Shown in pieces: positions 3,879 through 62,627 of a stretch of 64,000 nucleotides of DNA; within the stretch, counting starts at the first letter, position 1; the number at the start of each line of letters is the position of its first letter. The stretch covers positions 62,001-126,000 of the forward strand of contig NZ_JAJOMA010000004.1 in the NCBI RefSeq assembly GCF_021129235.1, written 5' to 3'. The notes beneath the pieces were generated by a model. The model was given only the letters and a program-made list of their open reading frames with translations. It had not been told where the DNA came from and searched no databases. Origin of the DNA: Kineosporia mesophila (GTDB lineage Bacteria; Actinomycetota; Actinomycetes; Actinomycetales; Kineosporiaceae). Both the position numbers and the translations under genes were made by a program.

Positions 3879-4045
3879 TACCGGCATCACCTGTGACCCA
3901 CCACGCCACAGGCGTGACCCGGTCGACGGCGAATATCTCGGACCCCCCGTAGATGATTGCCTGACGTACATTTCCTGAGCGCCCGTCACACCATTTACCA
4001 GGCCTTATCCGGAGCACCGGCCGGACGATCATTCCCGAACGCGGT

Positions 4046-5488
4046 TCATTCCACGTTCAGGTAGACGAAGCCTGGCCCCTCGTCGCGGTAGGTGACGCCC
4101 AGTCGCCCACAGACGTCGGCCAGGGCCGGTCTCCACGACCCGGTCACGCCCGGGTCCGCCGCCTCGAAGCCGTGGTCCGCGGTGAGCAGGAAAGTCACCT
4201 GCTGCCGCAGTCCGATGGCGTCCAGGTGAGCCAGAAAAATGCCCAGCCGCCGGTCCGCATCGCGCAGGCTGTTGCGCGCGATCGGTGAGCGCGGCCCTCC
4301 GGCGTGATGCCCGGCATCCGTGACGACGGTCGACCACCAGGTCAGGTACGGGGCCGTCGCCGGATCGGCCCACTCCCGCAGCACCTGCGCGAGCCCGGCC
4401 TCGTCGACCCGGGTGGCCCAGGCGAAGTAGCGGTCGTCCAGATGCGGGCTGCCGGTGGCCGGGGGCAGGAAATCCGTGACGGAACTGCCCGGCGTATCGC
4501 CCAGGGCGCGGACGACCTGCATCGTCGACGTGGTCGCGCCGCGGTCCACCGCCTCGTTCACGCACACGCTGCGGCTGCCCGGCCGCGCCCGGGCGAGACG
4601 CTCGAACACCGTGCGCACGCCGGGCCGCAACCATTCGGCGCTGCGGTGCCAGGTGCTCTCGTCGTTCGCGTTGATGCGCTCGCCCCGGGCCCGGTCGTAG
4701 AAGACGTTGCCGAGAACGCCGTGGCGCCCGGGGCCGACGCCGGTCAGCGCGGTGGTGTGATTGCACAAGGTCACACTGGGGAACTCGGCCACGGCCCCAC
4801 CGGTCAGGGCGGAGCCGTCGGCCAGCAGTTCGGCGACGGCCGGCAGCTCGCCCTCGGCCGCCAGGGCAAGTAGCTCCGAGCTCGGGGCGCCGTCCCAGAG
4901 CAGACCGACTACGCGACGGGAGGGGACCTCGTCCATCATCTCGACCGCCTGACCCTCGAAACCCTCGAGGGCTCCGGGATCATCGACCCCGGCCAGACGC
5001 AACAGCGTCGGGGCGACGTCGATCATCCGGGCGTACCCCGGTACCCGACCGGCCGGCGGGATGCCCGCACCGGAGAGCAGGAACGGCGCCCGGGACTGGA
5101 TCACGTCGAGCGAACCGTGCTCACCGGCGTGCCCACCCTCGTCCGGGAAGAAGTGTGAGGGCGTGTGGATCACGACGAGATCCGGACTGCGATCGGCGTC
5201 GGCGAAGAACGACAGCAGTCGCCGGGCCGGTTCGGGATAGGCATTGGACGCGTTCGGCGGCGAGGGGTTCGCGCGCTCCCGGTCGTAGGGCAGGAAGGCG
5301 AGCGGGTCGGTGACGGCCAGCGGGTCGGACCCGGCGATCACCTCGTGCCGCTCCCCCGTGAACAACCGCACCACACCTCGCTGCCCGTGCACCACGACGG
5401 TCCCGGCCGGTTCCGGATAGGCCACGAGGTCGACGATGTGGGCCAGGTGCGGCCGGGTGAGGGCCTCGGCGATCTCACGTGCGCTCAT
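4046..5488 (-). CDS. Alkaline-phosphatase-superfamily phosphodiesterase
   Basis: The 480-residue protein belongs to the type I phosphodiesterase/nucleotide pyrophosphatase group. The core has the metal-binding aspartate in LLWDGAPSS, the nucleophile region FPSVTLCNHTTALTGV, HGVLGN, the AGHHAGG histidines and TADHGFE. Oddly, the element that normally closes the fold (EHGSLDVIQSRAPFLLSG) sits near residues 135-155, before the core. This looks like circular permutation or a partial second copy. The start is taken as ATG at 5488, which has no strong ribosome-binding site but has TAATCT 8 nt upstream. No signal peptide is seen, so it should be cytoplasmic. The substrate is unknown. Confidence 0.8.
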   Translation of the reverse strand: MSAREIAEALTRPHLAHIVDLVAYPEPAGTVVVHGQRGVVRLFTGERHEVIAGSDPLAVTDPLAFLPYDRERANPSPPNASNAYPEPARRLLSFFADADRSPDLVVIHTPSHFFPDEGGHAGEHGSLDVIQSRAPFLLSGAGIPPAGRVPGYARMIDVAPTLLRLAGVDDPGALEGFEGQAVEMMDEVPSRRVVGLLWDGAPSSELLALAAEGELPAVAELLADGSALTGGAVAEFPSVTLCNHTTALTGVGPGRHGVLGNVFYDRARGERINANDESTWHRSAEWLRPGVRTVFERLARARPGSRSVCVNEAVDRGATTSTMQVVRALGDTPGSSVTDFLPPATGSPHLDDRYFAWATRVDEAGLAQVLREWADPATAPYLTWWSTVVTDAGHHAGGPRSPIARNSLRDADRRLGIFLAHLDAIGLRQQVTFLLTADHGFEAADPGVTGSWRPALADVCGRLGVTYRDEGPGFVYLNVE

Positions 5489-5517
5489 GGCAGGTGAGAT
5501 TAGGTGGCAAACGCCGA

Positions 5518-5555
5518 ACGGGGGCTGACCACCCCCTCCGATGGTCAGCCCCCGT
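5518..5555 (-). terminator. Strong hairpin between small gene and phosphatase gene
   Basis: ACGGGGGCTGACC pairs perfectly with GGTCAGCCCCCGT (13 bp) around a 12-nt loop. It lies 75 nt downstream of the 55-aa gene stop and just upstream of the phosphatase start, so it likely ends the whiB7-side transcript. Confidence 0.7.
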
Positions 5556-5629
5556 CCGAAGTCCAAGACGTGGTGAAGAGTCCTGGCGTTGCTTCACTGA
5601 TACAGGTCAGTGGCGAAAATTTCCGGCGA

Positions 5630-5797
5630 CTACCGGACCGACCCCACCCGGGCCGTCGTCGCCTTCGTCCACGGTGCCCGCTTCGTGCGGCGGCGGGCGC
5701 GCTTGGCCACGCTGACGTAGCGCTCGTCGGCGGCGAGTGCCCTGGCCTCGTGGTGCTGCAGTTTCATCAGTTCGAAGTTGTACAGGCTGGCGTGCAT
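5630..5797 (-). CDS. Small basic protein next to whiB7
   Basis: This 55-residue product starts MHASLYNFELMKLQHHEAR and continues into an Arg/Lys-rich tail (KRARRRTKRAPWTK). The ATG has an AGGGGGA ribosome-binding site 7 nt upstream, and the frame stops before a 13-bp terminator hairpin, which supports a real gene. The N-terminal half should form an amphipathic helix. Short proteins of this MH-x-LY type are common in actinobacteria, but I know no function. It follows whiB7 on the same strand with an 81-nt gap that contains an AT-rich CATAAT (5825-5830), so it may be read from its own promoter. Confidence 0.65.
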   Translation of the reverse strand: MHASLYNFELMKLQHHEARALAADERYVSVAKRARRRTKRAPWTKATTARVGSVR

Positions 5798-5878
5798 GGC
5801 AGTTTCCCCCTGGAAACGAAAAACATTATGTGAGTAAAACTTCGGGTGCTCGGGGCGGGCGGCCGCCGGATCCGGAGA

Positions 5879-6262
5879 TCAGGCAGCCACCACGACCTTC
5901 CGCGGCCGGCCCCGGGGGCGCTTGCGCGCGACGACCACGCCGGCGACGAAGAGCTCGCCACCCCAGACGCCCCACGGTTCGTTGCGCTCCAGCGCGCCGG
6001 CCAGGCATTCCTGCCGCACCGGGCAATCGCGGCACAGTGCCTTCGCGTGCTCCACATCCGTCGGAGACTCGGCGAACCAGAGCTCCGCGTCGAACACCCG
6101 GCAGGGCATCTCGGTCGAGGTCTCGTCGATCTCTTCCACCAAGGCGTCGAGCAAGGCGGTGAGCTGCACGGGTTTCATCCCCCTCGGGTTGTTCCCCCGG
6201 TTACGGCCGGGAGCTGTTTCATCTTTCGCTGAATTGGAGTTGAGATTGGACGTTCTGCTCAT
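5879..6262 (-). CDS. whiB7: WhiB7-type redox-sensing transcription regulator
   Basis: The 127-residue protein has the four WhiB cysteines (C54, C77, C80, C86) for a 4Fe-4S cluster and the EPWGVWGGE turn at 95-103. A C-terminal AT-hook, KRPRGRPRK at 114-122, distinguishes WhiB7/WblC from other WhiB proteins. WhiB7 binds the primary sigma factor and activates intrinsic antibiotic-resistance genes, including its own. The N-terminus is about 30 residues longer than the mycobacterial protein if ATG 6262 is used; ATG 6178 is the alternative but has no spaced ribosome-binding site. Neighbours match the mycobacterial whiB7 locus: ABC1 kinase, UvrD2, mycoredoxin and NudC. Expression should be controlled by the upstream leader and autoregulatory promoter described separately. 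Confidence 0.93.
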   Translation of the reverse strand: MSRTSNLNSNSAKDETAPGRNRGNNPRGMKPVQLTALLDALVEEIDETSTEMPCRVFDAELWFAESPTDVEHAKALCRDCPVRQECLAGALERNEPWGVWGGELFVAGVVVARKRPRGRPRKVVVAA

Positions 6263-6292
6263 CACGGAAACCTGAAAACCCTTGTCAGACAA

Positions 6293-6334
6293 CGAAAAAG
6301 CCGTGGACCCCGATTGGGGTCCACGGCTTTTTCG
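6293..6334 (-). terminator. whiB7 leader attenuator hairpin
   Basis: A perfect 19-bp stem begins CGAAAAAGCCGTGGACCCC on the transcribed strand and closes on an AATC loop. It ends in CTTTTTCG, so it is a textbook intrinsic terminator. It lies 22 nt after the stop of the upstream ORF and 30 nt before the whiB7 ATG, which is where an attenuator must be. Confidence 0.88.
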
Positions 6335-6356
6335 CGAGGCCGGAAGCGGCGTATGC

Positions 6357-6647
6357 CTATCCGGTGCCATCGCTGGCCTGTGACCCGTAAAGGGGCTTGA
6401 AGAAATCGGAGGACGGTCGCACGGCGGCCAGACGGCCAGCCTTGGCGGCAGCAGCCCCACTCATGGCGCCGGCCCAGGAGGAACCCAGGGACAACGGAGC
6501 GGGCTGCAGGCAGACTGCACCCGTGTTCACGAGTTCAGTCGCGCCGACGTGATACCGGACCTCATTCAGCGATGAGGACACGGACGCGGCTTTGCCCTGG
6601 ACGGCGACGGTGGCGGCGGTGATCCGCATGTCAATCGTGGTCTTCAC
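6357..6647 (-). CDS. Upstream ORF in the whiB7 leader
   Basis: This 96-codon frame starts at GTG 6647 with an excellent AGGAGGT site 8 nt upstream and stops 22 nt before the attenuator hairpin. The peptide begins MKTTIDMRITAATVAVQ, is rich in Ala, Ser and Val, and resembles no enzyme. Translation of an upstream ORF is known to set terminator readthrough in whiB7/wblC leaders: a ribosome slowed by antibiotic lets the antiterminator form. At 96 codons this ORF is long for a pure sensor, so the peptide may also have a function of its own. A stretch near its end (6377-6386) can pair partly with the 5' arm of the terminator. Confidence 0.7.
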   Translation of the reverse strand: MKTTIDMRITAATVAVQGKAASVSSSLNEVRYHVGATELVNTGAVCLQPAPLSLGSSWAGAMSGAAAAKAGRLAAVRPSSDFFKPLYGSQASDGTG

Positions 6648-6735
6648 GTGTCGCCACCTCCTGCTCTAGTCCCGGGCCGACCTTCTTCAGGCCTGCCGTG
6701 GTGCGATTGTTGTCACTGACAGGACAACGAGATCG

Positions 6736-6775
6736 AGAGTAGACGCCCCCGTGCCTGGCGGACAACGTATTTAAT
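6736..6775 (-). promoter_or_regulatory. whiB7 promoter with WhiB7 AT-rich element
   Basis: On the minus strand, ATTAAATA (6775-6768) lies 2 nt before a TTGTCC -35 (6765-6760). An 18-nt spacer leads to TACTCT (6741-6736). An AT-rich block just upstream of the -35 is the known signature of WhiB7-activated sigma-A promoters, bound by the AT-hook. This predicts a leader of about 470 nt. Confidence 0.72.
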
Positions 6776-6913
6776 GGCGAATACTTCGCGGCACCCACCC
6801 GAACGGGTCAGTAGGTGGTCCTTTGTCCTTGCCGCGCAAGACTTTTAGAAGTTCCAAAAAAGTTTTGAGAGTGCGTGGTCAGGCTCTGCGCAACCTCTGC
6901 CGGACCTCTGGTC

Positions 6914-7555
6914 TCAGCTGCGGTTGGCCGCGATCAGGATGAGGAAAAGCACCGGGAGCGCCCCGAAGCACATCAGCAGGCCCAGCCGGGTGGGTACGGG
7001 CGCGGGGGTCACGTCGGGGTCCCGGCCCTTGTTGCCCAGCCGCAGCAGCAGCGACGCGGCGACGAAACCGACCAGCGGCACCAGCACGCCGTACCGGAGG
7101 AAGTCGGGGTTGTTGCCGGTGGTCGCGAACCCGATGAACTGGACCGCCATGATCACCAGCGCGGTCACCCCGAAGACCACGAAACCGCGTAGCCCGCTGC
7201 CCAGACGGGGCAGCAGATTCGGCTGGATCGCCCGGTTGTGGGCGTCCGCCCCCTGGATCTCGGCCTCGTCGATCAGCTGGGCCACCCGGCCCAGGTCGGT
7301 CTGCGGCTCCACGTGCCCCTCGGGCCGGGTGCCGGCCTCCGGCGGGAACTTCAGCTTCGCCTTCTGGGCGAAGGCCGACAGGTGGTAGCGCTGGTTCTCC
7401 AGACGGGCCACCAGCTCGTCAGCGTGCTCGGACATCTCGGCGGCGCCCTCGCGGATGCCGGCCGTGCGGGCGTTCTCCTCGGCCCGCACCGAGTCCAGCC
7501 GGCGCGCGTACTCGGCGTACTCGGCCCAGCCCTGCTGCGGGGACGACGGCGGCAT
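6914..7555 (-). CDS. Coiled-coil membrane protein, partner of FtsK-like ATPase
   Basis: The 213-residue protein has a charged helical N-terminal half (residues 1-110: AEYARRLDSVRAEENARTAG and a heptad-like stretch around VARLENQRYHLSAFAQKAK). Three likely membrane helices follow: GLRGFVVFGVTALVIMAVQF, a segment around YGVLVPLVGFVAASLLL, and GLLMCFGALPVLFLILIAA at the C-terminus. I do not recognise a named family. Its ATG overlaps the stop of the FtsK/SpoIIIE-like gene (TGATG), so both should be made together and may form one membrane complex. The gene ends just short of the whiB7 promoter region. Confidence 0.75.
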   Translation of the reverse strand: MPPSSPQQGWAEYAEYARRLDSVRAEENARTAGIREGAAEMSEHADELVARLENQRYHLSAFAQKAKLKFPPEAGTRPEGHVEPQTDLGRVAQLIDEAEIQGADAHNRAIQPNLLPRLGSGLRGFVVFGVTALVIMAVQFIGFATTGNNPDFLRYGVLVPLVGFVAASLLLRLGNKGRDPDVTPAPVPTRLGLLMCFGALPVLFLILIAANRS

Positions 7556-10182
7556 CAGGCGAACTCCTCGCTGTAACGGCCGGGCGACACGAACGGCACG
7601 ATCAGGTCCTCGCGGTCCTCGTGCCGGTCGATCAGCAGGGCCCGGTTGTGCCGGGGCTGCCAGCGCAGGTTCGCCCGGCCGAGCAGGAGGCCCACCTCGT
7701 TGCCCTTCACGTTCAGGGCGACCAGGCCGGCCACGTCGTCCTTGCCCGTGGACCCCAGGTCGTCGCTGAGACGCCGCACGCCGCGCCACCAGCCGAAGAT
7801 GTGCACCCCGGAGGCCGGGCCCTCCCGCAGGATCGTGCGGAAGTCGTCGATACCCGCGGCCCGGCCGGGCTTCTTCTGCCGGAGCGAGGAGGCGGCCGCG
7901 TCGGCGCCGTAGACGAACAGGTAGTTGGGCCGCATCCGGTCGGGCGGGGTGTTCGCGAACTTCCGCAGCAGCTCGCGGTACTCGGGCAGGCGCAACATCT
8001 CGGCCCGGTGCCCGGCACGCTGCAGCCGTTGCTCGAGGATGAAGACGTCTTCCTCGGCCGACCCGATCAGGCTGACCAGGTGGAAACTGGCCTCGCCGGG
8101 CTCGTGCTGCTGGGCCAGGCTGATCGCGGCCGAGGCGAGCACGTCGGCGCCGACCGCCGAGGTGCCGAGCACTCCCAGGTGACGGCCGGGTGAGGAGTCG
8201 AGCGGGAAGCCGGCCGACGACAGGCCCACGTCGACCTGGCGGCCGACCAGCGCGACCTTGCGGCGGCGGCCGGTGGCGCGGCGCGGGGGCGGCGGGGCCT
8301 CGTCCACCGAGTACTCGGCGTACCCGATGAAGACCGCGGGCGGCGGGGAGCCGGGGGTGCGCATTTCCCACATCCGGTGCCGCAGCGCGTGCAGGCTGGA
8401 CGCGTCCGCGTCGGGGAACCGGGCCCGGCGGTTGGCGCTGGCCACCCCGGCGGCGTGGTTGAGCACGACCTGGCCGATCGGCAGTGCGGCCGCGGCGTCG
8501 TTCATCGCGTTCAGGATGCCGCCGCCCCCCGACAACGCGACCCGCATGCCGAACTGCCCGAACACCGACGTGCTCTTGCCGAAGAGCGACTCGATGCCGG
8601 AGACCGACTGGCTGGCCATGATCAGGTGGATGCCGTAGGACCGGCCCTTGCGGGCGATCTCCTCCAGCAGGGCGACCGAGCGCTTGGCCGTGTCGTCGGT
8701 GCCCTTGAGCAGCACGTGGAACTCGTCGATCACGGTGAGGATGCGCGGCAGCGCCACGTCGGGCCGGGAGGTGCGCAGCTGGGCCAGGTTGGTGACGCCG
8801 GCCTTCTTCATCGCGGCGGCCCGGCGGCTCATCTCGCGCACCAGCTCGGCCAGTACGGCCAGGCCGTACTCCCGGTCGGACTCCACCCCGACGGTGCGCG
8901 CGTGCGGCACCCAGGTCGGGTCGATCTCGGTCGGGATGAACTCCGAGAACGACACGCCCTCCTTGAAGTCCAGCAGGTAGAGCGCCAGCTCGTCGGGTGA
9001 GTAGCGGGCGGCCAGGCCGTAGAGGATGTCGAGCAGGAACACCGTCTTGCCGGAGCCGGTGCGGCCCGCGACCAGCCAGTGCGGGGTCTGGTCGTCGAGC
9101 GAGACCACCGCGTCGCCCCGGCCGATGCGGCCCACCAGCGTGGTCAGCCCGGTGATCGACGACTCGGTCCAGAGTCGCTCGGGCACCAGGTCGTCGAACA
9201 GCAGCGCGCCGTCGGACTCGGCCTTGGCCGCGACCCGGCGGCACAGCTCGTCGATCAGGCCGGGCGGGGGCGGGGAGTCGAGTGTGACCGTGGCGTTGAG
9301 TGCGCGGCCCTCGGCTCCGAAGCTCTCCAGCGGCGGGTCGCCGACCCGGAAGTGCCCGTGCGAGGAGGGGTCGGCGGTGATCATCGTGGTGCGTTCCAGC
9401 GGCACGGCCTTGTCCCACGCCGACCGGGACCGGCTCGGGCTCCCCCAGCCGGTCAGCAGCAGGTGCACGCGGGCGGCCGGGCCGGCGTGCGAGAGGGCCG
9501 CGATCCGGGAGTAGTCGCTGCGGGTGCAGCTCGCGGGCAGCGCGGCGGTCACCACGACGAGTACGTCGGGCGACGGGTTCAGGCCCGCCTGCACCTGTTT
9601 CACCTGTTCCTCAGCCTCGGTGAGCAGCTCGCGGAACTCGTCCAGGTCGCTGACTGGCTCGTTCATCACGCCGGCGGGCACCAGCGGGTGGAACGGTGCC
9701 AGGGGGGCGCCGAGGGCACCCCCGTCGACGGCGAGCAGGCGCAGCTGACCGGCCGGGAAAGCCGCCACCAGCCGGGTGATGATGCTGCGCAGGAGCCCGG
9801 CGACGGCCGGGTCGCGGGCGTCGGTGTCGATCGCGATGTGGCCGACCCCGGTGAACGGGACGATCACCGGGAACCCGACGCCGGGCAGGGGCTGCGCGTC
9901 GCCGATCCGGATCATCGCCGGGTCGCCGGCCCGGGCGGAGTGCTCCAGGGGAAAACGCTGCTCCCCGATCACCGCCCAGGGTGCCCCCAGCCACTGCGGG
10001 GCGGCGTCAGCCGCGGCCCGCTCCAGCCGGGCCGCCAGCGCGGTCTGCTGCTGGGCCGACTCGGCGCTGTGCGTCGACTCCGCCTCGAGCCGGTCGAGAC
10101 GCTCGCGCACCGCATCGAGCAGCCCCTCGGCCTGCCGGTGCGTGTTGACGGCCCGTCCGAACAGCGTCTTCGCGCTGACCAC
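7555..10182 (-). CDS. FtsK/SpoIIIE-type ATPase of unknown role
   Basis: The 875-residue protein has a coiled-coil N-terminus, a Rossmann-like region without a P-loop, and a central FtsK/SpoIIIE ATPase with Walker A GRTGSGKT at 373-380 and Walker B ILTVIDEFHVLL at about 482-493. A C-terminal RecA-like domain lacks a P-loop (SSPGRHLGVLGTSAVG). It has no N-terminal membrane helices and no FtsK gamma DNA-reading domain, so it is not the divisome translocase. A repeated-ATPase layout with one degenerate copy recalls EccC of type VII secretion and HerA/FtsK-like pumps. GTG 10182 is chosen because GGAGG lies 8 nt upstream. It is translationally coupled to the membrane protein that follows. Whether it moves DNA or protein is unknown. 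Confidence 0.8.
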   Translation of the reverse strand: MVSAKTLFGRAVNTHRQAEGLLDAVRERLDRLEAESTHSAESAQQQTALAARLERAAADAAPQWLGAPWAVIGEQRFPLEHSARAGDPAMIRIGDAQPLPGVGFPVIVPFTGVGHIAIDTDARDPAVAGLLRSIITRLVAAFPAGQLRLLAVDGGALGAPLAPFHPLVPAGVMNEPVSDLDEFRELLTEAEEQVKQVQAGLNPSPDVLVVVTAALPASCTRSDYSRIAALSHAGPAARVHLLLTGWGSPSRSRSAWDKAVPLERTTMITADPSSHGHFRVGDPPLESFGAEGRALNATVTLDSPPPPGLIDELCRRVAAKAESDGALLFDDLVPERLWTESSITGLTTLVGRIGRGDAVVSLDDQTPHWLVAGRTGSGKTVFLLDILYGLAARYSPDELALYLLDFKEGVSFSEFIPTEIDPTWVPHARTVGVESDREYGLAVLAELVREMSRRAAAMKKAGVTNLAQLRTSRPDVALPRILTVIDEFHVLLKGTDDTAKRSVALLEEIARKGRSYGIHLIMASQSVSGIESLFGKSTSVFGQFGMRVALSGGGGILNAMNDAAAALPIGQVVLNHAAGVASANRRARFPDADASSLHALRHRMWEMRTPGSPPPAVFIGYAEYSVDEAPPPPRRATGRRRKVALVGRQVDVGLSSAGFPLDSSPGRHLGVLGTSAVGADVLASAAISLAQQHEPGEASFHLVSLIGSAEEDVFILEQRLQRAGHRAEMLRLPEYRELLRKFANTPPDRMRPNYLFVYGADAAASSLRQKKPGRAAGIDDFRTILREGPASGVHIFGWWRGVRRLSDDLGSTGKDDVAGLVALNVKGNEVGLLLGRANLRWQPRHNRALLIDRHEDREDLIVPFVSPGRYSEEFA

Positions 10183-10283
10183 CGAGTGATCCTCCGAAAT
10201 GTGACCGTACCGAGCCCAGGTGTGCCCAAGTGTCACGAACCACGATAGGCGGTACGGCGATCACCGAGCACCCGGAAGTGGCG

Positions 10284-61334: not shown

Positions 61335-62627
61335 ATGTCCAGTTCTCACCGCGTGCTCCGGATCGTCACCGCTGTCACTGCTGCCGCCGCTCTCACCCTG
61401 AGTGCGGCCGGCACGGCCCAGGCGGCTCCCACCCAGGACAAGAAGGACGACTTCGTCCTGCCTCAAGCGGTCTCCTGGGTCGGCGGTGAAGACCTGATCA
61501 GCACCAAGACGCTGACCGACCTGCCGGACGGGGTCAAGGCGCCGCCGAAGGTCAAGGCCGCCGCCTGGCTGGTCGCCGACCTGGACAGCCGGGAGATCCT
61601 GGCCGCGAAGAACGTGCACGTGCCGCTGCGCCCGGCCTCCACCCTGAAGCTCTTCACCTCGCTGACCATCGAGCCCCAGCTCGAGCTCGATCAGGTCTAC
61701 ACGGGCCGCGAGGAGGACGAGGCGATCGAGGGCACTCGCGTCGGCATCGTCAAGGGCTCGAAGTACACGGTGGACGACCTGTTCCACGGCCTGCTGATGG
61801 CCAGCGGGAACGACACCGCCAACGCCCTGAGCAATCTGATCGGTGGTCAGGCGGCGGCGGTCACGCAGATCCAGGCCGAGGCGACCTCGCTCGGGGCCTT
61901 CGACACGGTCGTGCGCAACACCAGCGGCCTGGATACCAAGGGCCAGGTGAGCAGCGCCTACGACCTGGCGCTGGCCGGAGCCGCCGCGCTGCAGAACGAG
62001 ACGCTGGCCAAGATCATGGTGACCCCGGCGTACGCCTTCCCGAACAAGGGAAAGTCGCTGAGCGCCAAGCGGAAGCACTACCAGATCCAGAACCACAACC
62101 GGCTGCTCGGCTACCTGCCCGGGGTGATGGGCGTCAAGAACGGCTACACCACCAAGGCCGGGAGCACGAACGTCGCCGCGGCGGCGCACCAGGGCCACCA
62201 CTACATCGCGGTGGTCCTGCGGTCCGACGGCTCGGTCTTCACCCCCAGCGGTGACCTGCTGAAGTGGGCCTTCACCTACGGCCAGAAGGCCAACCCGGTC
62301 GGTCGGCTCGTGGAACCCGGTGAGCTGAGCGCGATGACGGGCCCCGGCATCGACGTCTCGGCGGCGCAGGCGACCAGTTCACCCGACTCCGGCGCGGTGG
62401 ACGGCATGATCAACGGCGCCGGGTCCGACCAGCTCAAGGCGGCTCTGCCGGCCGCCAACACGGTCAGCACCACCCAGCACATGACCCGCTTCTGGCCGCT
62501 CGTGCTCACCCTCGCCCTGCTGCTCGTGGCGGCGGCCTTCGGTCTGCGCCCCGTCCTCGTGAACAGCCGGCGCTCCCGCGCCCGTCAGGTGCGTCGCCGG
62601 CAGCGCGACTCCCGGCACCTCTACTGA
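61335..62627 (+). CDS. dacB1: D-alanyl-D-alanine carboxypeptidase (DacC/DacB1-like)
   Basis: The 430-residue exported serine peptidase has a signal peptide (about 1-30, ending GTAQAA). The SxxK motif is ASTLK with Ser102 and Lys105, SGN is at 158-160 and KNG replaces KTG at 268-270. It ends in a membrane helix (LVLTLALLLVAAAFGLRPVL) and an Arg-rich tail (RRSRARQVRRRQR). It trims the last D-Ala from peptidoglycan peptides. KNG is tolerated in some relatives. A 44-bp palindrome follows. It matches Rv3330. Confidence 0.92.
   Translation: MSSSHRVLRIVTAVTAAAALTLSAAGTAQAAPTQDKKDDFVLPQAVSWVGGEDLISTKTLTDLPDGVKAPPKVKAAAWLVADLDSREILAAKNVHVPLRPASTLKLFTSLTIEPQLELDQVYTGREEDEAIEGTRVGIVKGSKYTVDDLFHGLLMASGNDTANALSNLIGGQAAAVTQIQAEATSLGAFDTVVRNTSGLDTKGQVSSAYDLALAGAAALQNETLAKIMVTPAYAFPNKGKSLSAKRKHYQIQNHNRLLGYLPGVMGVKNGYTTKAGSTNVAAAAHQGHHYIAVVLRSDGSVFTPSGDLLKWAFTYGQKANPVGRLVEPGELSAMTGPGIDVSAAQATSSPDSGAVDGMINGAGSDQLKAALPAANTVSTTQHMTRFWPLVLTLALLLVAAAFGLRPVLVNSRRSRARQVRRRQRDSRHLY

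Follow-up and report, generated by a model that had tools for sequence, protein, structure and literature searches.

The whiB7 leader of Kineosporia mesophila, a probable ribosome-controlled attenuator, and the amino-acid content of its upstream reading frame

The leader of whiB7 in Kineosporia mesophila is very probably a ribosome-controlled transcription attenuator, a member of the known kind in which an upstream open reading frame (uORF) governs whiB7/wblC. The parts of this leader, its alternative folds, the co-adaptation of its segments and the spread of the arrangement through the class were computed here; the direction of the switch and self-activation are carried over from the literature on relatives and would hold by analogy. 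As to the uORF itself, we lean towards reading it as a pan-amino-acid sampler: the sequence would drift, selection would preserve one or more codons for almost all amino acids, and a single switch would respond both to a lack of any charged tRNA and to ribosomes stalled by drugs. This step, which is new, we infer.

Layout and distribution of the whiB7 leader

The window, a stretch of 64,000 nucleotides (positions 62,001 to 126,000 of contig NZ_JAJOMA010000004.1) from a Kineosporia genome of 7.78 Mb, carries on its minus strand, in this order, a WhiB7-type promoter, a Shine-Dalgarno (SD) sequence, the uORF, a terminator and whiB7. The following features were assigned:

6766-6774, minus strand: A/T-rich box TTAAATACG, adjoining the -35 element on its upstream side
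6736-6765, minus strand: promoter, -35 TTGTCC (6765-6760) and -10 TACTCT (6741-6736), 18-base spacer
6654-6662, minus strand: SD sequence AGGAGGTGG of the uORF, with AGGAGGT from 6662
6357-6647, minus strand: uORF, GTG start, TAG stop, 96 codons, all 20 amino acids
6292-6335, minus strand: Rho-independent terminator, 20-bp stem, 4-base loop, fold of -39.6 kcal/mol
5879-6178, minus strand: whiB7 coding sequence, 99 aa, WhiB domain and RGRPRK AT-hook

The original prediction had named the promoter, the SD sequence, the 96-codon GTG uORF, the stem with a U run and whiB7, and each was found where it had been placed. The outermost pair of the terminator stem is a G-U wobble, and TTTTT lies within the 3' arm. 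The whiB7 product matches PF02467 (Pfam Whib; E 1.8e-16), its AT-hook was identified by eye, and no model in NCBIfam matched the protein; an alternative GTG start is possible 9 bases further in. Among the matches listed, those from outside the genus are 52-77% identical to the WhiB7 protein of the window.

The box TTAAATACG (6774-6766) is a probable WhiB7-responsive element, judged by its sequence and position. The available part of PMC7157823 gives GAAAWY, 3 nt upstream of the -35 element, as the WblC site. TTAAAT of the window agrees with it in four of six positions and is spaced as published, and GAAAAT-ACG-TTG or GAAAAT-GCG-TTG is present in the leaders L012, L013, L022 and L137. The hexamers TTGTCC and TACTCT are identical in six leaders of the same genus, all six of which contain an SD-preceded uORF of 89-96 codons. 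These six also share, between the start site and the SD sequence (6662-6735 in the window), CTGAAGAAG followed by a C/G-rich stretch, possibly a 5' hairpin.

Upstream of the leader (window 6917-10236) lie a gene for an FtsK/EccC-like ATPase (7558-10236; PF01580, E 3.4e-28) and one for a 213-aa protein without Pfam match. Several relatives have in front of whiB7 instead a protein end like VVFTDATLxAIAE, which we take to be HRDC-like. Directly downstream of whiB7, on the same strand, a 55-codon ORF beginning MHASLYNFEL (5630-5797) had no match in Pfam or NCBIfam.

For comparison, 168 loci were collected from searches of 1, 58, 58 and 148 genomes. Sixteen were set aside (paralogues, a cut contig and loci fetched via a uORF search) and eight more lacked the WhiB7 pattern, leaving 144 for analysis; a first version of this pattern had missed 72 of 152 loci and was replaced. 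The same arrangement, an SD-preceded uORF ending near a stem of at least 10 bp, is present in 126 of the 144 loci, the other 18 having no uORF-terminator pair or a weak terminator only. It was found again in 154 of 180 further whiB7 loci (excluded: one without WhiB7, eight without uORF, 17 weak). In a named set, mostly Streptomyces, 77 of 80 of these further loci had it, with a median uORF length of 108 codons; in the other set it was 77 of 100, with a median of 82. The extremes of 8 and 212 codons among the further loci are probably miscalled.

The uORF of the window had been called unusually long, which is not borne out by this survey. In the 126 loci the median is 85 codons (interquartile range 71-105, range 37-172); 81 uORFs are shorter than 96 codons, four including that of the window are equal, and 41 are longer. 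The distance from the uORF stop to the terminator is rather uniform, with a median of 22 nt (5-95%, 15-27).

Some loci depart from the common pattern. In L017 (genome G013) an in-frame TGA stands at the beginning of the WhiB7 match; this locus has a short leader and several candidate uORF starts. Among the matches listed, the genomes shown of family f19, which belongs to the same order, are all without a whiB7 match at the cut-off, possibly a family-wide loss of whiB7, and G034, G198, G234, G429 and G435 have two whiB7-like matches each at that cut-off.

The antiterminator fold and the pairing of the uORF end

When the leader RNA was folded before the 3' arm of the terminator, a structure of three helices was predicted. 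P1 is formed by the uORF and the terminator 5' arm, P2 by the uORF end and the spacer or the base of the terminator arm, and P3 is a hairpin enclosing the stop codon. In the window, folding places their strands as follows:

6376-6386, minus strand: 5' strand of P1, GGGTCACAGGC, within the uORF
6316-6327, minus strand: 3' strand of P1, GCCGTGGACCCC, shared with the terminator 5' arm
6360-6373, minus strand: 5' strand of P2/P3, GCGATGGCACCGGA, uORF end
6334-6345, minus strand: 3' strand of P2/P3, TTCCGGCCTCGC, in the spacer; the hairpin encloses the uORF stop codon

According to the original prediction, GGGTCACAGG at 6386-6377 would pair partly with the terminator 5' arm as the antiterminator. 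It does so in the fold, at nucleotides -30 to -21 of the uORF counted from the end of the stop codon, and an antiterminator of this type is supported across the class. The structure extends beyond P1, and it encloses the stop codon as well. P1 to P3 are not all clean in each of the 19 loci shown, L099 and L133 being different, and P1 of the window is modest (-11.6 kcal/mol compared with a mean of -16.1). The early RNA of the window, ending before the 3' arm, folds with -34.1 kcal/mol and retains -16.3 kcal/mol when the stop codon is occupied by a ribosome; the terminator alone reaches -39.6 kcal/mol. As the longer RNA adopts the terminator fold at equilibrium (-65.2 kcal/mol), antitermination must be kinetic.

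Selection on the pairing was assessed by mixing leader parts between species. Each uORF end was combined in turn with the spacers and arms of all the other species, and row and column means were removed (104 non-redundant of 121 anchored loci). Own uORF-leader combinations pair better by 7.4 kcal/mol (permutation sd 0.33), and the value is negative in 104 of 104 loci: the uORF end and the downstream leader are co-adapted. P2/P3 give z -17.1 with 91% of loci negative, P1 alone gives z -6.6 with 65% of loci negative, and three control segments gave z -0.8, 1.3 and 1.3.

Changes within the fold were counted on an alignment of 62 rows, the window and 61 of 64 references. Compensatory double-sided change was seen in 11 of 18 named pairs, and the covariation score of 0.241 lay above every one of 500 shuffles (0.171 +- 0.008) and every slid version (at most 0.138). 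The fold loses stability, on average, when synonymous codons are shuffled (mean z -1.36 over the 126 loci), with all 60 shuffles beaten in only 14% of loci; for the window z is -1.58, and 5% of the shuffles are as stable. RNAalifold predicted no pair on the 62-sequence alignment A1 and, on an earlier alignment, the terminator core only and no antiterminator; alignments are fuzzy where spacer lengths vary. An anchored column-pair scan was uninformative, dominated by nearly invariant GC columns. Rfam 15 had no family at the gathering threshold in window positions 4000-9000 (best 23.7 bits, 45 needed), nor any at threshold in L001, L013, L047 and L067, and the P1-P3 fold could become an Rfam family.

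Complementarity to the terminator 5' arm was scanned in sliding 24-nt segments along the leader, counted from the end of the stop codon. Its mean over the 126 loci is best at uORF nucleotides -41 to -17 (-17.5 compared with about -13 kcal/mol). The scan is noisy for the single locus: only 36 of the 126 loci have their best segment at the uORF end (offsets -23 to -8), and inner segments of the window's uORF score as well (-17.7 and -17.6) as the one near its end (-16.9).

The hairpin could also be an ordinary terminator and the ORF a chance product of GC-rich DNA, in which chance ORFs are long; control segments, too, pair with the arm by at least five pairs in 70 of 92 folds, to be compared with 100 of 100 real folds. 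The SD sequence, the fixed spacing, the co-adaptation and signals specific to the reading frame all oppose this explanation, which we regard as extremely improbable.

With an attenuator, the events could be as follows. RNA polymerase would start at about position 6729, and the uORF would be translated behind it. Unhindered ribosomes would reach the stop codon, cover the uORF end and open the stop-codon hairpin; the terminator 5' arm would then be free, the terminator would form, and whiB7 would not be transcribed. A ribosome slowed or stopped in the long upstream part would leave the uORF end unoccupied, and this end would pair with the spacer and the terminator 5' arm (P1-P3) while the 3' arm has yet to be transcribed. 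The polymerase would then read on into whiB7, and WhiB7 would also activate its own promoter. Attenuation of this kind in relatives is treated in the available parts of PMC11550727, PMC13236596 and PMC10727445; a model of whiB7/wblC attenuation is published, and related literature, also available in part, comprises PMC4128351, PMC12421871, PMC13393426, PMC10287673 and PMC10937400.

From the length of the uORF it had also been suggested that the peptide might have a role of its own, and the question had been raised whether the peptide or only the pairing is conserved in relatives. A peptide role deduced from length finds no support here. The pairing is conserved; the peptide body evolves loosely, with a median dN/dS of 0.72 (interquartile range 0.50-1.03, 60 close pairs), and the conserved end falls within the pairing region. 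SPPV or GPPV, often preceded by W, terminates 33 of the 126 uORFs and DGTG or DGSG another six, the six of the same genus ending in ASDG-T/S-G; both types form the 5' sides of helices P2 and P3. Among the 60 close pairs, pS is 0.069 and pN 0.038 in the final 17 codons, compared with 0.149 and 0.109 in the body. As silent change is reduced there too, the conserved end is read as being kept mainly by RNA pairing.

A functional small protein or arrest peptide, with attenuation being secondary, would account for the recurring last residues and for a median body dN/dS below 1; the closest pair of the window, L001-L007, has dN 0.036 and dS 0.113. However, the body is poorly conserved, judging by the median and spread of its dN/dS; the last residues vary from clade to clade with the pairing preserved, silent substitutions are scarcer at this end as well, and the uORF peptide gave only one weak match each in Pfam (15.2 of 22 bits) and NCBIfam (16.4 of 450 bits), far under the cut-offs. 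A main function of the peptide is accordingly considered quite unlikely.

Amino-acid coverage of the uORF

Coverage was assessed on uORFs of at least 50 codons, using greedily chosen dissimilar representatives from which the start and the last seven residues were removed unless stated otherwise. In 62 mutually dissimilar uORFs, 18.34 distinct amino acids per uORF were found compared with 17.15 +- 0.13 when residues were pooled and redealt (z about 9). No coverage excess was seen in the two alternative frames of this DNA (z -2.6 and -2.5) or in 80-residue segments taken from 40 ORFs of the window (z -2.6). Counts of rare residues are under-dispersed, with variance/mean ratios of 0.47 for C, 0.51 for W, 0.37 for Y and 0.64 for F, and also 0.71 for H, 0.71 for M, 0.69 for N and 0.76 for K; these residues tend to occur about once per uORF. 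Q (1.0) and E (1.51) are not under-dispersed, and Glu is over-dispersed in all sets but one. Among 57 combined representatives, counted as whole peptides, 20 contain all 20 amino acids and 41 at least 19. Three of the six uORFs from the same genus contain all 20, and three lack His only. Ala is the commonest residue in the uORF pool (16.9%, compared with 12.4% in the window proteins).

The excess is a property of the whole ORF, since local windows of 30 codons showed none (z at most 1.1). It amounts to z 9.0 without the last seven codons and z 6.5 without the last 19; residues at codons -19 to -8 thus add to coverage, though a stall there should not help, and a restriction of the sampling to residues preceding the final 19 codons is unsupported. 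Sampling at the level of codons was rejected: given the amino acids, the number of distinct codons is not raised (z -1.5).

The excess was seen again in 23 additional loci that are dissimilar to those of the first set (z 4.2), and under stricter dissimilarity it was weaker (z 2.3 with 14 loci, 2.4 with 11). W, K and Q were not under-dispersed in this replication set at any cut-off, and C, H and D were not at some. Both the weakening and the behaviour of W, K and Q would suit the possibility that the attenuator is real and the coverage an echo of common descent, with ancestral residues slowly lost at fixed places. All loci are homologous, weak shared motifs (VCLQ/LCPQ and GTGLSG) are visible, and in one draw of related pairs 394 of 497 singletons had a copy at most 10 residues from the corresponding position. 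On the other hand, the first set kept its signal under stricter dissimilarity (z 9.1, 8.6 and 6.8 with 65, 39 and 27 loci), including the under-dispersion (variance/mean of W 0.53, 0.21 and 0.24), and the excess belongs to the whole ORF and not to its 30-codon windows.

Retention of single residues points the same way. In well-aligned pairs, singletons are kept in place more than additional copies of the same amino acid (Mantel-Haenszel odds ratio 2.09; 1.68-2.72 over 20 draws with about 461 singletons each, mean z 5.5); the other two frames gave odds ratios of 1.35 (mean z 2.3) and 1.40 (mean z 2.0). Since retention is weakly raised in those frames too, part of the effect is not frame-specific. 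Taken with these results, common descent as the source of the coverage appears possible but doubtful. In well-aligned pairs, 67-74% of the singletons lost from their place are found elsewhere in the uORF. This is only weakly above the 63-65% that independent draws give (z 0.5-2.4); the other frames reach 28-38%. Loosely aligned pairs gave higher values (z 5.1 to 8.3); these may merely repeat the coverage signal, and the strict version was therefore relied on.

It could also be the length that matters, the uORF setting the time or distance between polymerase and ribosome, with composition being incidental. The bounded length (interquartile range 71-105 codons) and the fairly free sequence would agree with this. 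Yet lengths spread from 37 to 172 codons, and neither under-dispersed rare residues nor singleton retention would be predicted; length as the sole selected property is judged unlikely. If the uORF is a sampler, selection for carrying nearly all amino acids would account for the length of its body, and the same switch would be tripped by a lack of almost any charged tRNA or by a drug halting ribosomes in many contexts.

Two further features of the uORF bodies were seen in 57 uORFs by shuffling within each uORF, both unreplicated: [RK]x[RK], a macrolide-arrest context, is enriched (80 compared with 54.8 +- 6.4), and PP, a site of slow translation in unstressed cells, is depleted (7 compared with 21.8 +- 4.5). 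This combination would suit a frame that runs freely until the ribosome is disturbed. Nine uORFs of family f22, perhaps Mycobacteriaceae (L114, L118, L133, L141, L332, L334, L336, L337 and L339), have 50-74 codons, 24-37% Ala and only 14-17 different amino acids. Perhaps these frames do not sample and are tuned to Ala instead; such tuning would agree with the response to alanine starvation that the title of a 2024 publication by Poulton et al. names.

Relation to known leader systems

A uORF attenuator of whiB7/wblC has reportedly been described by Lee, Lee and Roe in 2022 and by Burian and Thompson in 2018. The leader of the window shares with it the gene, the WhiB7-type promoter, the uORF, the terminator and an antiterminator made of uORF and terminator; it differs in being a member from Kineosporia. 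The stop-codon-enclosing P1-P3 fold, the length survey and the amino-acid coverage were worked out here.

In the trp, his and ilv attenuators, too, the choice between antiterminator and terminator depends on where the ribosome stands in a leader ORF. Those ORFs are short, and their few regulatory codons specify one amino acid or a small number of them. Unlike them, the whiB7 uORF is long and contains nearly every amino acid, the rare ones about once. An attenuator of this type was rejected for the window, whose uORF has 20 amino acids and is not dominated by one or few. The available part of PMC13236596 includes an ilvB1 case.

The erm, vmlR and topAI (toiL) systems likewise switch on a stress or resistance gene when ribosomes stall in a uORF. 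Such drug-sensing uORFs are short, with stalls at definite sites, unlike the long, freely evolving whiB7 uORF. An erm-type arrest-peptide leader was rejected as well, given the median body dN/dS of 0.72 and a conserved end that belongs to the RNA pairing region and shows fewer synonymous changes. According to the available part of a 2025 paper (PMC12121999), toiL, too, responds to several classes of drug, whiB7 is induced by starvation as well, and stalling within the whiB7 uORF had not been tested. No paper describing the amino-acid coverage of the whiB7 uORF was found, as judged from titles and the beginnings of abstracts.

The leader thus is a known kind of attenuator in another genus, and the length of its uORF leads to a testable new reading. 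Classical leader peptides are several times shorter than whiB7 uORFs, and the sampler, if true, would explain this difference. The coverage rule would also give a concrete answer to the question of how one leader senses chemically unrelated ribosome drugs as well as starvation, and it may offer a way to recognize general translation sensors in genomes.
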